This document shows positions 2,517 to 32,571 of a stretch of 36,791 bases of DNA, piece by piece. The notes beneath the pieces were generated by a model. That model searched no databases. It was not told the origin of the DNA and saw only the letters and a list, made by a program, of their open reading frames with translations. This DNA comes from a virus, in IMG/VR virus record IMGVR_UViG_3300020176_000040, positions 1 to 36,791 of that record; one strand, given 5' to 3'. How positions within the stretch are numbered: position 1 is the first letter of the stretch; each line of letters starts with the position of its first letter. A program made the translations under genes and the position numbers.

Positions 2517-2948
2517 CTAGGCGGCTTTGCGAGCCTGGTTTTCGGCCATCGCCGCAAGGTACAGGCGGCAAAGATGACCTATTTCATCAACGCTGGCGCT
2601 GACATTATCGTAATACCCGTCACAAGTTTCGCTCCAAACGCCGTCGCAATCTTCTGGCATAAGCTCAATGGCCGCGTGTAGTTTCCAGCGTTTCGATAAT
2701 CCGGCCATGCCGTGCAGCGCCTTGTAATAGGCGGCATATGCCGGGTTTTCGGCTAATGCGCGGGCTTGATTTGCCGCCGCTTTGGCAAAGGCCCCTTGCG
2801 GCGTAAAGTTAGGCTTAACTTTGCCGGAAACTTTCCATCCAAAACCTATGTTTTTCAGTACCGTGCCATCGCTCATATAGCGTTTGGCGCTTGTGAGCTT
2901 ATTTACCGTGCCTACTTCCGTGCGACCATATGCAGAGAGTTTTGCCAT
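2517..2948 (-). CDS. Hypothetical phage protein
   Basis: A 143-residue protein. It has a basic N-terminal third (MAKLSAYGRTEVGTVNKLTSAKRY...), an Ala-rich helical middle (AFAKAAANQARALAENPAYAAYY) and an acidic Cys-containing segment (MPEDCDGVWSETCDGYYD). AAAGGA lies about 11 nt upstream of the ATG. The gene stands alone between two hairpins, which suggests a monocistronic unit. No family is recognised. Confidence 0.65.
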   Translation of the reverse strand: MAKLSAYGRTEVGTVNKLTSAKRYMSDGTVLKNIGFGWKVSGKVKPNFTPQGAFAKAAANQARALAENPAYAAYYKALHGMAGLSKRWKLHAAIELMPEDCDGVWSETCDGYYDNVSASVDEIGHLCRLYLAAMAENQARKAA

Positions 2949-2999
2949 TGTGGCGGTGTCCTTTATTAGCTTGGCGTTTCGGGCATTAACCTTCCCGTA

Positions 3000-3030
3000 T
3001 AAACCCCCGCCGGATTAGGGCAGGGGCTTA
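3000..3030 (-). terminator. Intergenic hairpin after 3042-3233 gene
   Basis: On the minus-strand RNA the arms are UAAGCCCC and GGGGUUUA, pairing over 8 bp through one G-U wobble and followed by UAC. The wobble pairs only in minus-strand RNA, which fits termination of leftward transcription. Confidence 0.45.
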
Positions 3031-3041
3031 GGCTGGAGGGC

Positions 3042-3233
3042 TTAGGACAACGACGCGACTATTTTCGGGCCTGACCAACGGGTTGCTTGCCCATTAACTA
3101 GAGTATTGCCGTCGATCACAAAGCCAAGCGCGGCAAAAGATTGTTTCGCCTCTTCATGCGCTTCGATGCTGCGGCGCACAGCAACAACATTACCGTGCCG
3201 GTCTAAAATCGTGTATTCGTCCGCACCTATCAT
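3042..3233 (-). CDS. Small hypothetical phage protein
   Basis: The start is placed at ATG 3233 (MIGADEYTILDRHG...), preceded by AAAGGAA at good distance, giving 63 residues; the frame is open to 3299 but without a comparable signal. The sequence (TILDRHGNVVAVRRSIEAHEEAKQSFAALGF) suggests a small alpha/beta protein. It is the first leftward gene next to the large non-coding region. No family is recognised. Confidence 0.6.
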   Translation of the reverse strand: MIGADEYTILDRHGNVVAVRRSIEAHEEAKQSFAALGFVIDGNTLVNGQATRWSGPKIVASLS

Positions 3234-3455
3234 TTGCTTGTTTCCTTTGCTGCTTGGCAGTGTAAACAGATAGATTATTTGCGCGTGGCGCAATACCATT
3301 GAATGCCTGTCTATTGGGAAAATGGCGGAATATCATGCGGCAGCCTGTCGCATGTGGTAGCGGGATACCGCATTTGAGTATCGGAAAAGTCTGCCTCCCT
3401 CCACGCATGGCCGGGGGTCTGCGATATTGATTTGTTCTGCATGCGTTCTAATTCT

Positions 3456-3809: not shown

Positions 3810-4020
3810 GCCACCGCCCCATGCCGCACGGCCCGCTAGGATTGCACACCGGCTGGCATGGTAAACATTCGATGTTGGCGCTGGAAACTTTCTTCGACGG
3901 GGTGGGGTCGATATAGACATAGGCCCTCCCCACAAATTGGCCTGCCCTAGCCGGTCTTGCTCAAATCCCAAAATTTGCCGGGAAATCCAAAATCAGTCCT
4001 TGCGCTAGGCACACAAATAT

Positions 4021-4058
4021 GCCTGCAGATTGACTACAGGCTCAAATCCGCCCATATT
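4021..4058 (+). promoter_or_regulatory. Sigma70-like promoter for the structural operon
   Basis: TTGACT (4030-4035) and CATATT (4053-4058) are separated by exactly 17 nt and lie about 30 bp before the first rightward gene. The -35 box is inside an imperfect inverted repeat, GCCTGCAG (4021-4028) and CTACAGGC (4034-4041, 7 of 8 pairs). A repressor bound there would block the promoter. No factor can be named. Confidence 0.5.
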
Positions 4059-4088
4059 TGGCTATATTTCACCTAAATCTGGTGCAAA

Positions 4089-4259
4089 ATGCCTTCCACA
4101 TCTGACAAACAGCGTCGTTTCATGGCTGCGGCGGCCCATAGCCCCGAATTTGCCAAGAAAGCTGGCATTCCGGTTAAAGTTGCCAAGGAATACAACGCGG
4201 CGGACAAGGGGCCTAAGCTGGCCCGCGCGATGAAGAACATGAAGCGGGACGACACATGA
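4089..4259 (+). CDS. Small basic hypothetical protein
   Basis: A 56-residue, Lys/Arg-rich protein (MPSTSDKQRRFMAAAAHSP..., ending in MKNMKRDDT). The N-terminus resembles the short 'MP-S-K-x-Q-x-RFM' phage proteins that often precede packaging genes. It is the first gene behind the promoter at 4030-4058 and overlaps the terminase small subunit candidate as ATGA, so it is probably co-translated with it. The ribosome binding site is weak (GGTG). A role in packaging or DNA binding is only suggested by charge and position. Confidence 0.6.
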   Translation: MPSTSDKQRRFMAAAAHSPEFAKKAGIPVKVAKEYNAADKGPKLARAMKNMKRDDT

Positions 4260-4549
4260 CGCGCTTTACGAAGAATAACACGGCTAGTCGGGGTCGCGGT
4301 CGGCCCAAGGGGTCGAAGGACAAGTCCACAAAGAAAGCCAAGGAGATGATTGCCAGCTTTGTTGATGGCAATGCGGAGCGGCTGAACCAGTGGCTTGAGG
4401 AAGTTTATGAGCAGGACGGCCCCAGGGCTGCGTTTAACTGCTTTTCGGATCTGATTGAGTACCATGTGCCGAAATTGGCTCGCAATGAAGTAACCGGTCC
4501 TGATGAGGGTCCAGTGGAACTCGTGATTTCGTGGCAAGACAAGAAGTAG
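4256..4549 (+). CDS. Putative terminase small subunit
   Basis: A 97-residue protein with a basic AT-hook-like N-terminus (GRGRPKGSKDKSTKKAKEMI, about residues 12-31). A helical region and a segment reading DLIEYHVPKLARNEV follow. Similar short proteins with GRPKGSKN-type starts and an 'EYHxPKLAR' stretch are common just upstream of phage large terminases. Small subunits recognise phage DNA and hand it to the large subunit. The assignment rests on position and the basic start; it lacks a clear helix-turn-helix and is shorter than most. It could instead be a nonessential DNA-binding protein. Confidence 0.55.
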   Translation: MTRFTKNNTASRGRGRPKGSKDKSTKKAKEMIASFVDGNAERLNQWLEEVYEQDGPRAAFNCFSDLIEYHVPKLARNEVTGPDEGPVELVISWQDKK

Positions 4550-4555
4550 GCGGGC

Positions 4556-5053
4556 ATGGCGGACAAAGACGCACAGAAACTGGCTAAAATTCTGGCGTCT
4601 GTCCGGCCCCTGCAGCGTCCCACGCTGCCTACGGACGTAAACCCTGAAAGCAGGCTGACGCCAGAGCAATTGAACGGCTTGCAGTACAGCCGGGATAAAT
4701 ATGCTGACGGCACCTACATGGTTGACGCGCCGCATAGCCAGTACAATCCGGGCGACGAGCCTGCTATTACTAGCTTTATGGGCGCTATTGACCGCGTTCC
4801 AGCGCCGCTAAAGGACGCTGGGCAGTACGTCAATTACCCAACATTTTGGGACGGCGCAGTTGTTGATCCAAACAAGGCCCTGACTAACGCTTTGGCGTAT
4901 GAAGCGCATACTGGCAAGAAATTTGCCCGCTATCCCACGCCGCAGGCTGCAGAATGGGGCGAAATGAAGGTTGTTCACCCAATTATGGATGCTGATGCTC
5001 AGAAGGTATTGGCAACCACAGAAGCACAAAAACGTCTGAGAAATGCGAAATAA
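4556..5053 (+). CDS. Hypothetical phage protein upstream of TerL
   Basis: A 165-residue soluble protein without membrane segments or a recognisable catalytic motif. The middle reads SFMGAIDRVPAPLKDAGQYVNYPTFWDG and the C-terminal third is helical and basic. Its stop overlaps the ATG of the large terminase (TAATG), so the two are translationally coupled. A packaging or head-assembly role is possible from position only. Confidence 0.65.
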   Translation: MADKDAQKLAKILASVRPLQRPTLPTDVNPESRLTPEQLNGLQYSRDKYADGTYMVDAPHSQYNPGDEPAITSFMGAIDRVPAPLKDAGQYVNYPTFWDGAVVDPNKALTNALAYEAHTGKKFARYPTPQAAEWGEMKVVHPIMDADAQKVLATTEAQKRLRNAK

Positions 5054-7176
5054 TGGCTGTAAAGGCTGTCAGCATTGAGTATTCGCCTCGCGATGCGTTC
5101 ATGCCATTTCACAACCGCACGCAGCGGTGGGCTTGCCTTGTGGCGCATCGCCGGGCGGGCAAGACGGTTGCAGCGGTCAATGACATCATACGGGCGGCGG
5201 TCACTTGCAAGTCGCCCAACCCGCTTTTTGGCTACATAGCGCCGTACCGCAGTCAGGCCAAGAGCGTGGCTTGGGATTATCTCAAGCGTTTTAGCAAGCC
5301 AATCGCGAAGGCGGCCAATGAAGCGGAATTGCAGATTGATCTGGTCACAGGCGCACGAATTCGGCTTTTCGGCGCTGATAACGCTGATGCTATGCGCGGC
5401 TTGGGCTTTGACGGCATTTTTATGGACGAGTACGGCGATTTTCGTCCTAGCGTTTGGGGTCATGTCATTCGTCCTACGCTGTCTGACAAGCAGGGCTGGG
5501 CCGTGTTTGGCGGCACTCCGAAGGGCAAGAACCAGTTTTGGGACATTTATCAGACTGCCAAGCTAAGTCCGAAGGATTGGTTCCTTTTGAGGCTGACGGC
5601 GACTGACAGCCAGATATTGCCGCAGTCGGAATTGGATGCGGTTAAGTCCCAGATCACGCCTGACCAGTATATGCAGGAATATGAGTGCAGCTTTGAGGCG
5701 GCGATCCTCGGCGCATTCTACGGTGTTGAGATGCGCGAAGCGGCAGACCAGGGCCGCATCAGCGAAGTGCCTTATGACCCGGCTTTGCCGACATATACGG
5801 CGTGGGACTTGGGCTTTCGGGATGACACTGCAATCTGGTGGTATCAGGTAGCCCGCAATGAAATCCACGTTATCGATTATTACGCTGTTTCCGGCGCTAG
5901 TATTTCTGATATTGCTGAAGTTGTTGTCAATAAGCCTTACCATTATGGCAAGCACTACTTGCCGCATGATGCGCGAGCTAAAACTCTTGCTGCTCAAGGC
6001 AAGTCTGTTATTGAGCAGCTGGCTGAATTTCTTGGGTTAGCCAATATTGCCGTTGTGCCTGATCTTGGCGTTCAGGACGGCATCCAGGCTGTGCGTATGA
6101 CGCTGCCCAAAGTCTGGTTTGACGAACTCAAGTGCAATGAGGGCATTGAGGCTCTTAGGCAGTATGAGCGCGAGTTTGACGAAGACAAAAAGGCATTCCG
6201 CGCGGCTCCCAAGCACAATTGGTGCTTTACCGGCGACACAAAGATATTGACACGTTACGGAACGTATCAGATGATGGACCTGCCGTATAGCGGAGAGGTT
6301 CTGACATCATGTGGCTGGAAGCAATACATCAATCCGCGTGTGACGCGGAAAAATGCCCGTCTTGTGGAAGTAACGTTCAAAGACGGTCTTTTGGTGAAAT
6401 GTACGCCGGATCATACATTCAAAACGGAATTCGGTTGGACATCCGCCGAATCCCTAATGCCGGGTACAGTGATCCAATCTTCCTTGATCCCATCACGCAA
6501 TATTTTGACGGCGGCCTATACCGCATTTGGGAAAGCGATAAATACTTTAAGCGCGGCGGCAAATACTTGCATCGAGATGTCTGGAAGGCTGCATTTGGGA
6601 TTATCCCTGATGGGTGCCACATCCATCACAAAGATAGCAACCGCGCCAACAATCGACTCGAAAATCTTGAATGCTTACCTGCCGCAATACATCTTCGCGA
6701 AACGCTCAGGCTATGGCACAAGCGTCATGCAGAGCGGTCTAAAAGTTGGACCAAATGGAAGCGCGAACCAAAAGAATGCCTTGAATGCAAAAATCAATTT
6801 GACGCATTGGTTCGCAAATCTGGACATGCTCAAAAATATTGTTCATCCGCTTGCAAGGTTAAAGCGTACCGCGATAGAGGCGCTGACAAACAGGCGACTG
6901 CTCGTTATAGAGAGCGTCAAAAATCTAAATGAAACGTCTGACGTTTGGTGTTTGACTGTACCGGGCGCAGAAGAATTTTCGCTGTCTAACGGCGCGATAG
7001 TTCACAACTGCTCTCATCCGGCAGATGCATTCAGAATGTTGGCTATTGCATGGCGCGGAGAAGTTGCGCCGAAAGTTATGGCAAGCGAGCGCCCACTGAT
7101 TGTGGGCAAAGGTAACACGGCCACATTGAATGATATGTGGGCATCACAGAAGACAAAGAGAAGGGCTAGACTATGA
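5053..7176 (+). CDS. terL: Terminase large subunit interrupted by an intein
   Basis: The large terminase is the ATP-driven motor that packs phage DNA into the prohead and cuts it with an RNase H-like nuclease. The 707-residue precursor has a Walker A-like HRRAGKT (32-38) and a Walker B FMDE (catalytic D125-E126). Nuclease acidic residues are at WD252, HD306 and, after the intein, HPAD658. Residues 391-652 are an intein, and its removal gives a 445-residue enzyme, a normal size. The insertion lies between Trp390 and Cys653, directly before the last nuclease motif, so the unspliced protein should lack a complete nuclease site. The next gene starts inside its stop codon (ATGA). Confidence 0.93.
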   Translation: MAVKAVSIEYSPRDAFMPFHNRTQRWACLVAHRRAGKTVAAVNDIIRAAVTCKSPNPLFGYIAPYRSQAKSVAWDYLKRFSKPIAKAANEAELQIDLVTGARIRLFGADNADAMRGLGFDGIFMDEYGDFRPSVWGHVIRPTLSDKQGWAVFGGTPKGKNQFWDIYQTAKLSPKDWFLLRLTATDSQILPQSELDAVKSQITPDQYMQEYECSFEAAILGAFYGVEMREAADQGRISEVPYDPALPTYTAWDLGFRDDTAIWWYQVARNEIHVIDYYAVSGASISDIAEVVVNKPYHYGKHYLPHDARAKTLAAQGKSVIEQLAEFLGLANIAVVPDLGVQDGIQAVRMTLPKVWFDELKCNEGIEALRQYEREFDEDKKAFRAAPKHNWCFTGDTKILTRYGTYQMMDLPYSGEVLTSCGWKQYINPRVTRKNARLVEVTFKDGLLVKCTPDHTFKTEFGWTSAESLMPGTVIQSSLIPSRNILTAAYTAFGKAINTLSAAANTCIEMSGRLHLGLSLMGATSITKIATAPTIDSKILNAYLPQYIFAKRSGYGTSVMQSGLKVGPNGSANQKNALNAKINLTHWFANLDMLKNIVHPLARLKRTAIEALTNRRLLVIESVKNLNETSDVWCLTVPGAEEFSLSNGAIVHNCSHPADAFRMLAIAWRGEVAPKVMASERPLIVGKGNTATLNDMWASQKTKRRARL
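6292..6298 (+). promoter_or_regulatory. Shine-Dalgarno for the nested HNH gene
   Basis: GGAGAGG sits 10 nt before the ATG at 6309, inside the intein codons for Gly-Glu-Val. It is the strongest ribosome binding signal near the nested frame and favours independent initiation. Confidence 0.5.
6309..6932 (+). CDS. HNH endonuclease nested out of frame in the intein
   Basis: A 207-residue protein read in the -1 frame relative to the terminase and lying entirely inside the intein DNA. The core is an HNH nuclease of HNH_3 type. LHRDVW (H88) and CHIHHKDSNRANNRLENLE (H106-H107, N115, N119) form the beta-beta-alpha-metal active site. A C-terminal treble of cysteines (C157, C160, C178, C182) forms a zinc-binding unit, followed by a basic tail for DNA contact. 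The nuclease proper (about 61-207) coincides with the featureless intein linker. Residues 1-55 overlap the conserved intein blocks and look less natural, so a start at M31 (6399) is possible. Likely role: cut intein-free terminase alleles and spread the element (inference). Confidence 0.85.
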   Translation: MWLEAIHQSACDAEKCPSCGSNVQRRSFGEMYAGSYIQNGIRLDIRRIPNAGYSDPIFLDPITQYFDGGLYRIWESDKYFKRGGKYLHRDVWKAAFGIIPDGCHIHHKDSNRANNRLENLECLPAAIHLRETLRLWHKRHAERSKSWTKWKREPKECLECKNQFDALVRKSGHAQKYCSSACKVKAYRDRGADKQATARYRERQKSK

Positions 7177-7496
7177 GCGGCGTTAATAATCCTTATAGGT
7201 ATCAGTATGAGCATGTGGGCGTGTCACAGACTGCCCAGGTGCTTGGCGGGACGGGCGCGGTAGGCGACTACCTGCATCGCATCGTTTGCACTGTCAGCAC
7301 GGCGGCGACGAGCCTTGTGCAGGTTGTTGATGGCAGCGGAGCGGGCGTTCTCACGCATACCGTTCTGCCCAATAACGTGGGCGGCGGTGTTGGCGTTTAC
7401 AACATTGAACTCAATGCTGTGTCGGCTAATGGCGCGTGGAAGATCACGACCGGCGCTGGCGTTGAAGTCATGGCTGTCGGCATCTTCAGTGCGTAA
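7173..7496 (+). CDS. Hypothetical virion-region protein
   Basis: A 107-residue protein predicted mostly beta, rich in Val, Gly, Ala and Thr (TVSTAATSLVQVVDGSGAGVLTHTVLPNNVGGG). This composition is typical of small phage capsid-associated or decoration proteins. It starts within the terminase stop codon (ATGA), so it belongs to the packaging/head operon. No family is recognised; a structural role is inferred from composition and position. Confidence 0.65.
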   Translation: MSGVNNPYRYQYEHVGVSQTAQVLGGTGAVGDYLHRIVCTVSTAATSLVQVVDGSGAGVLTHTVLPNNVGGGVGVYNIELNAVSANGAWKITTGAGVEVMAVGIFSA

Positions 7497-31332: not shown

Positions 31333-31565
31333 TTCGCTGCCTCATGTCCCAATACCAGGTTAAGCAACTTCTCAGGCCAGATACGCGCCATAGCCGCACG
31401 GCTCATGCCCCGGCTTGCATTGTACTGGATTAGCTCAACTGATTTGGCATGATGATTCAGATATAGCGTATCCTCATTGCGGGCTTGCCGTTCCAAGATC
31501 AGGGCGTGTAACGCGCTCTCGCGCTGGCTGACTAGCATGTGGTGCCTAAAAGGGTATGTCGTCAT
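31329..31565 (-). CDS. Hypothetical helical protein
   Basis: Up to 78 residues from ATG 31565, whose first codons overlap the nuclease gene's end by 20 nt; ATG 31538 (69 residues, MLVSQRESALHAL...) is an alternative directly after that stop. The C-terminal half (QYNASRGMSRAAMARIWPEKLLNLVLG) could form a helix-turn-helix. No family is recognised. Confidence 0.6.
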   Translation of the reverse strand: MTTYPFRHHMLVSQRESALHALILERQARNEDTLYLNHHAKSVELIQYNASRGMSRAAMARIWPEKLLNLVLGHEAAK

Positions 31566-32571
31566 TTAAATCATCCGTCGAAATTTCAGGCCCCAAATCA
31601 ACAGCGGCCTTCTTCTTGCGTCCACGCCTGACAACTTCCTTGCTGGGCGTATGAGCAGGGCCGTTCTTGAATGTCTCGCCCGTGCTTTCAACAAAATACT
31701 CAACGAAATTCGTACCGCCGTCAACGGGCGTTCCATGCACAAGCGCCGGAATGAATATATGGCTCCCGCAGCCTTTGCGCTGATCCTCAACCGACAGGTC
31801 TTTGTCGTACTCATGGCAATGCCATTTGCCGTTAACCGTGGGCGTGGAATGGCAGCATGTCCGGCAATTGGCCTCGGCTGGCTCTGCCTGGTGGCATAGC
31901 TTGTACATATCGCACATCTTGCACAGCCAGTTGGCTGGGTCTTGGCTGATCTTGTCGGCAGGCTCAGGGCGTTTAACCGTGCGCTGCGCCTTATGCAGCA
32001 AGTCGCCGTAAGCCTGCTTATCGAAATGCACCCATTCGGTGTAAAGGTCGTCCGTGTCCTTGTTCACGCAGATATACATAGCCCGGTCCAGCTTCATCAT
32101 GCCCATGTAGGTCTGCATCTGGGCGTAATGCTGGGGCTTATCGGCTTGTACGCCCTTGGCCTTCAAGCTGGTAAATGCCTTGTTGTTGGCGGTCTTTATC
32201 TCCAGTACGGCCCACGACTTCGGCGCTTCAGGGAAGCCCAAACCCACGCCGTCAAGGCTCCCGCCAAAGTGGCCGGTACTATCACGGCAAGTGATTTGCT
32301 TACCGCCGTCCTCAGTGTGCAGTTCAACACCGATTGCACGAAGTTCCTCATAAACACGCGCCTCCTCGCGCTTGCCAGTATTGAACAACCGAAGGACGCG
32401 CCCCTCAAAATGAGGGGACGCAGCCCAGCGGAATGTTAGCCAAAGAAAACGGTCACAGTGATGCCCGATCAATGACGCACCAAGATGCTCGCGGTGGCCT
32501 TCTTGTTTGCTTTCGTACCACTCGTAAATTTTGCGGGCCGTGGTGTGCATGGATTCGGGCAGTGGGGGCAT
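31546..32571 (-). CDS. Fe-S RecB/Cas4-like nuclease with SSB-type C-terminus
   Basis: A 341-residue PD-(D/E)XK nuclease. It has SLIGHHCDRFLWLTFRW with C39, E-rich GKREEARVYEEL, GGSLDGVG (D107), LEIKTANN (E124-K126) and AQMQTYM (Q151, Y155), the RecB/Cas4 exonuclease motifs. C39 together with C217-x2-C220-x5-C226 matches the 4Fe-4S cluster arrangement of AddB/Cas4 nucleases, and further cysteines (C236, C239, C240) follow. The final residues NDDIPF copy the acidic tip of bacterial SSB, which recruits repair proteins. It likely resects DNA ends for the adjacent ssDNA-binding and RecA/Sak4-like proteins. Confidence 0.8.
   Translation of the reverse strand: MPPLPESMHTTARKIYEWYESKQEGHREHLGASLIGHHCDRFLWLTFRWAASPHFEGRVLRLFNTGKREEARVYEELRAIGVELHTEDGGKQITCRDSTGHFGGSLDGVGLGFPEAPKSWAVLEIKTANNKAFTSLKAKGVQADKPQHYAQMQTYMGMMKLDRAMYICVNKDTDDLYTEWVHFDKQAYGDLLHKAQRTVKRPEPADKISQDPANWLCKMCDMYKLCHQAEPAEANCRTCCHSTPTVNGKWHCHEYDKDLSVEDQRKGCGSHIFIPALVHGTPVDGGTNFVEYFVESTGETFKNGPAHTPSKEVVRRGRKKKAAVDLGPEISTDDLNDDIPF

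Follow-up and report, generated by a model that had tools for sequence, protein, structure and literature searches.

A phage terminase intein with an HNH endonuclease-like gene in a second reading frame

Introduction

In classical mobile inteins, such as PI-SceI and the inteins in the terminase large subunit (TerL) of mycobacteriophages (PMC5050341), a Hint splicing domain interrupts an essential DNA enzyme at a conserved motif, and an endonuclease lies between splicing blocks B and F, normally in frame and as part of the excised intein. In collaborative homing, the endonuclease is a product distinct from the splicing element and is encoded outside that element, which is an intron (PMC10448857). 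In addition, an out-of-frame HNH gene has been described in actinophage DNA methylases, in the ShiLan domain and the Pacc40 insertion (PMC11855218). The HNH has zinc motifs, the insertion is open in the host frame, and its distribution is sporadic and homing-like. There is no intein and there are no splicing motifs, and the authors predict that the insert stays in the methylase; the HNH begins with GTG and has no detectable ribosome binding site (PMC11855218).

Here we analyse an insert in a terminase gene of a 36.8 kb IMG/VR virus record, the whole of which (36,791 nucleotides) is referred to as the window. Like classical mobile inteins, the insert has a Hint domain that breaks an essential DNA enzyme at a conserved motif, with the endonuclease between blocks B and F; however, the endonuclease would here be a separate protein read from the −1 frame. 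The mycobacteriophage TerL inteins are in the ATPase domain (PMC5050341), whereas the window intein is near the C-terminal nuclease end. As in collaborative homing, splicing element and endonuclease are predicted to be separate products, although the endonuclease gene is inside the intein and overlaps it. Free-standing HNH proteins encoded by terL in phages PAE1, SN1, PhiSTP1, CL2 and BP10 are homologous, have zinc-type cysteine motifs and adjoin the same target gene, but they have their own intergenic seat, no intein, and 1–14 stops in the frame that corresponds to the intein's. The nearest published case that we found is the hidden HNH of ShiLan (PMC11855218). The window element shares with it an HNH read from another frame within an insertion that is open in the host frame, and differs from it in that a Hint intein surrounds the HNH, the host genes are terminases, and the HNH has a Shine-Dalgarno (SD) sequence and ATG. 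Our literature search turned up no intein containing an HNH in another frame; related cases may be reported in a preprint about non-canonical inteins of actinophages that was outside its reach (10.1101/2025.01.02.630785, cited in PMC11855218).

We hold with good confidence that the insert is a two-frame mobile intein, in which a putatively self-splicing Hint in TerL is accompanied by a separate −1 frame HNH that would give mobility, with splicing, cleavage and homing predicted from protein families and from the distribution of the insert.

Results

The terminase gene and its overlapping frames

The features of the locus are as follows.

5053–7176, + strand: TerL gene, interrupted by an intein
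5053..6222, + strand: TerL N-extein (Terminase_6N and Terminase_6C/RNase H-like, Pfam; PHROG_2 terminase large subunit, 2.7e-34)
6223..7008, + strand: class-1-like Hint intein of 262 aa, with Cys1, TPDH block B, C-terminal His-Asn and Cys+1
6292..6298, + strand: SD-like GGAGAGG inside intein Gly-Glu-Val codons (GAG bias; SD/ATG co-occurrence)
6309..6932, + strand: HNH homing-endonuclease-like gene of 207 aa in the −1 frame (ATG 6309, stop 6930–6932), wholly inside the intein
6354..6443, + strand: doubly constrained stretch, HNH residues 16–45 (CPSCG..GEMYAGS) over intein block B (KCTPDH)
6483..6929, + strand: HNH residues 59–end, with the HNH frame alone conserved and the intein frame mostly a stop-free linker (steps/site)
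6561..6695, + strand: HNH_3 core (HIHHKDSN..NNRLENLECL), the Pfam stretch 85–129
6707..6708, + strand: junction of a 75-nt deletion removing 25 HNH residues (..EARTSAAEWHRSDAG in related locus L007), in frame for both readings
7009..7173, + strand: TerL C-extein (CSHPADAFRM...), continuous with the relatives' intein-free site HNW/CSHPADAFRML

The initial annotation, made without database searches, reported an HNH endonuclease out of frame inside a terminase intein. Separate profile searches of the two frames bear this out, and the coordinates proved exact. The intein frame matches Pfam Intein_splicing (E = 2.9e-10) and NCBIfam intein_Nterm (3.3e-6, above cut-off), and the HNH frame matches Pfam HNH_3 (1.3e-15 over residues 85–129) and PHROG_15471, a phage HNH family (4.5e-24). 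All the class-1 residues (Cys1, TxxH in block B, C-terminal His-Asn and a +1 nucleophile) are present in the window intein, with the Cys1 codon at 6223, the last Asn codon ending at 7008 and the +1 Cys at 7009. Among 17 aligned inteins, Cys1 and the block B Thr and His are invariant, and the C-terminal HN is nearly so. From these residues, we infer that the window intein splices itself from TerL. The G+C content of the insert is lower than that of the extein (0.47–0.50 versus 0.54).

In the predicted structure of the intein, the Hint halves mostly have pLDDT values of about 80–97, and linker residues 90–182 fall below 50 and are predicted to be disordered. The linker had been called featureless and put at about 165 residues; in this copy it measures about 140. 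In the HNH frame, the catalytic His and Asn of HNH_3 are present, and the HIHH..N..N columns are invariant in the alignment. The top match of the HNH model against the PDB is I-HmuI, which is not significant (E = 0.32); the model itself is of modest confidence (mean pLDDT 64). Elsewhere in the window, on the − strand at 31546–32571, is a homologue of a Cas4-domain exonuclease (PHROG_1990, 1.5e-99).

Related inteins

Relatives were gathered by scans with the HNH, the whole intein or the Hint N-part only, taking the best 80 loci per scan. There are at least 99 distinct related terminase inteins, and 97 of the 99 listed carry the HNH in the −1 frame with the intein frame open. No intein-frame stop codon occurs among the 99, and every HNH-bearing relative listed has its HNH in the −1 frame, with no in-frame version among them. 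The relatives thus keep both frames, which supports the earlier proposal that one stretch of DNA serves as inter-block linker of an intein and as a separate HNH gene. The only inteins listed that combine a broken HNH with a conserved intein frame are the deletion derivatives L299 and L315, in which the HNH core is deleted and the intein kept; L315 additionally lacks the ATG, the SD and CPxC. These two exceptions look like an ordinary stage of decay, namely mini-inteins formed by deletion of the HNH core. Two other apparent breaks of the HNH frame were rejected: that of L165 is its natural stop, and that of L187/L246 is a stop that precedes a displaced ATG.

The two-frame layout extends to 10 divergent loci, whose host genes are mostly recognisable as TerL (Terminase_6, Terminase_3 and T7-like families). 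It is found in terminase inteins of Tetrasphaera phage TJE1, a Rhodobacteraceae phage, Acinetobacter phage Highwayman and a human faecal phage, and in contigs of Frankia, a Selenomonadaceae and a gammaproteobacterium. When phage records were searched with the intein frame, the sole match was L001, a mini-intein without HNH at a similar TerL site.

Chance and selection in the two frames

A chance of about 5 in 100,000 had been put forward for the openness of the second frame, but this figure comes from the wrong test. When synonymous codons were drawn at random with the HNH protein held fixed, and stops were counted in the overlapping frames, the intein frame was left open with a P of 0.15–0.38 for the window sequence (median 0.06 over relatives). 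The openness of this single sequence is therefore unremarkable; the shuffle is a weak test for the window alone, and the evidence beyond chance is comparative. The choice of frame is explained by the same shuffle: with the frame in use, the linker has hardly any stops, against about 12 expected in the other overlapping frame, so that no other frame is practicable.

A tree built from 77 distinct inteins gave the rates of change at codon positions, expressed as steps per site. Over HNH residues 59–232 there were 12.4, 10.0 and 23.8 steps per site at the first, second and third HNH codon positions, respectively. The last of these is the second codon position of the intein, for which the value in the Hint-only parts is 6.5 rather than 23.8 (P = 4e-17, with sites treated as independent). 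It follows that the amino acids of the HNH protein are conserved but those of the linker are not: in the intein frame, the linker is kept merely free of stops, and selection acts on the HNH protein. The situation is different in HNH residues 16–45, where intein third positions have 8.8 steps per site versus 22.0 in Hint-only parts (P = 4e-7, again treating sites as independent) and intein second positions are still low, at 7.7. Both frames are constrained over these approximately 30 codons at intein block B. HNH residues 1–15 show little HNH constraint. The initial annotation's suggestion that both frames are under constraint is thus correct for residues 16–45, but from residue 59 onwards it applies to the HNH alone, with the intein only free of stops. 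Likewise, it had placed the intein blocks and the HNH core in different parts of the overlap; this separation is incomplete, because the constraint overlaps where block B overlies HNH residues 16–45.

The HNH of the window had been described as a full nuclease wholly inside the intein. It matches HNH_3 and is inside the intein, but it is not complete when compared with the HNH proteins of relatives: it lacks 25 residues holding WHxSxxGxxWH, a segment retained by the other 96 of the 97 HNH-bearing relatives listed. The window HNH may therefore be altered, impaired or inactive. Despite the deletion, its substitutions still show the pattern of purifying selection, since the changes unique to the window branch in HNH residues 59–end number 1, 0 and 16 at codon positions 1, 2 and 3 (16 of 17 at the third).

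The missing segment of the window copy raises the question of whether the HNH frame is a relic, left from a free-standing HNH that once entered a mini-intein, such that most copies are passive and the intein alone matters. The losses in L299 and L315 and the existence of mini-intein L001 would fit such a history. On the other hand, purifying selection on the HNH codons is strong, both over the 77 inteins and on the window branch; in addition, the HNH is intact in 97 of the 99 inteins listed and its start signals are kept. A relic is disfavoured by the codon-position rates, and we regard it as unlikely.

Translation start of the HNH

The two-frame intein that we favour would require that the HNH be translated separately. 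The HNH start is 86 nt past the first intein base in 86 of the 97 HNH-bearing inteins, and several of the 11 without an ATG at this position have an ATG or GTG a few codons later. The SD is present in 84 of the 86 inteins with the ATG at +86, versus 4 of the 11 without it. In the window, the codons for intein Gly-Glu-Val 5′ of the HNH ATG are GGAGAGGTT. The Glu at the SD is encoded by GAG rather than GAA at 27:1 in related inteins versus 448:334 in their exteins (P = 5e-6, a value that ignores relatedness). The pair of SD and ATG inside the intein supports separate translation of the HNH.

A different source of the protein would be −1 ribosomal frameshifting from TerL, which would yield a fusion of TerL, Hint and HNH and no separate protein. 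That every HNH-bearing relative listed has its HNH in the −1 frame relative to TerL is what such frameshifting would give, but that frame is already accounted for by the avoidance of stops. No canonical slippery heptamer was found at 6223–6500, the SD and ATG are co-conserved, and in L044 and L187/L246 a stop directly precedes the displaced ATG. Because SD and ATG co-occur, the Glu codon is biased to GAG and the heptamer was not found, independent initiation is preferred, and frameshifting appears quite improbable.

Distribution and mobility

Among the 80 best-matching TerL relatives, 76 score as being without the window-type intein. Three of these end at a contig edge, and in a fourth, L065, another type of intein is inserted 3 residues downstream; most of the remainder have the uninterrupted site, in sequences up to 96% identical. 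Because most of these TerL relatives are without it, the insert is sporadic and probably mobile.

The second type of intein (CLVAG...VSN/C), 3 residues downstream of the window-type site, is present in close TerL relatives L065 and L102, and in both it has a −1 frame HNH with its own SD and ATG (HNH at 3946–4509 and 2854–3417, respectively). More broadly, homologous inteins occupy four points in the TerL motif HDW-x-S-H-x-A-D-A, at offsets of 0, +1, +3 and +4 residues past HDW (36, 12, 24 and 25 cases, respectively; e.g., L030, L034 and L037). The matching terminase motif in the window is around 6214–6222 and 7009–7030. It is as if the intein insertion point had slid or been re-chosen within the motif.

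Several unrelated phages have a free-standing HNH homologue adjacent to terL or close by (L049–L053, L055–L058 and L005), which suggests that these proteins target the terL region. In free-standing homologues, the frame corresponding to the intein's contains 1–14 stops. In a tree, the free-standing HNH of Acinetobacter phage BP10 groups with the nested HNH of Highwayman; the tree requires the HNH to have switched at least twice between the nested and the free-standing state, without fixing the number of independent origins.

Discussion

We suggest the following scenario for the two-frame intein. The terminase mRNA would be translated in two frames across the insert. The terminase frame would give TerL with an embedded Hint, whose inter-block linker is meaningless and probably disordered, and the intein would then excise itself and rejoin TerL, as its conserved splicing residues imply. 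In the −1 frame, translation would begin independently at an ATG that, like its SD, is inside the Hint coding sequence; the product would be a distinct HNH_3 endonuclease bearing zinc-type cysteine motifs. This enzyme would cut terL copies that lack the intein, at the insertion point or close to it, and repair would copy in the entire element. Cutting and homing are the most likely role of the HNH because of its homology, the sporadic presence of the insert at one short terL motif, and the free-standing relatives beside terL. An implication is that the intein may let the HNH gene reside in an essential gene without harming it, while the HNH may make the intein mobile.

Two further explanations dispense with this scenario. 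Group I introns commonly carry HNH genes, and the insert might accordingly be removed as an RNA intron, with the intein-like frame incidental. However, there is no Rfam intron match in 5000–7400, none of the relatives listed has a stop in the intein frame, and the Hint, which is under strong selection, has the conserved residues for splicing and precise junctions at Cys1 and Asn-Cys+1, so that an intron is highly improbable. A sequencing or assembly frameshift that split one in-frame intein-endonuclease, a danger already named in the initial annotation and for which no support was found, is refuted by the two-frame layout that about 100 distinct inteins and 10 divergent loci share and by the location of both intein ends in one frame, and its probability is negligible.

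Besides inteins with an in-frame endonuclease and mini-inteins, it seems reasonably likely that phage terminase inteins have taken up a third architecture, either repeatedly or anciently and stably, which is undescribed in the literature that we found. It would consist of an independently initiated −1 frame HNH, with ribosome binding site and start inside the Hint and approximately 30 codons of dual coding for block B and the nuclease N-terminus.

Finally, we note what such an organization would mean for inteins and their nucleases. Inteins are classically described with a homing nuclease fused in frame, whereas here the selfish parts would share DNA but not protein. The two-frame intein would illustrate how a splicing element can be invaded by a nuclease gene whose product need not fold inside it, why the nuclease takes one particular frame, and how both parts spare the essential gene. 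It also provides a natural system of overlapping genes with about 100 diverged variants. Inteins scored as mini-inteins, or as having a featureless linker, may have nucleases that were overlooked because the host frame alone was read.
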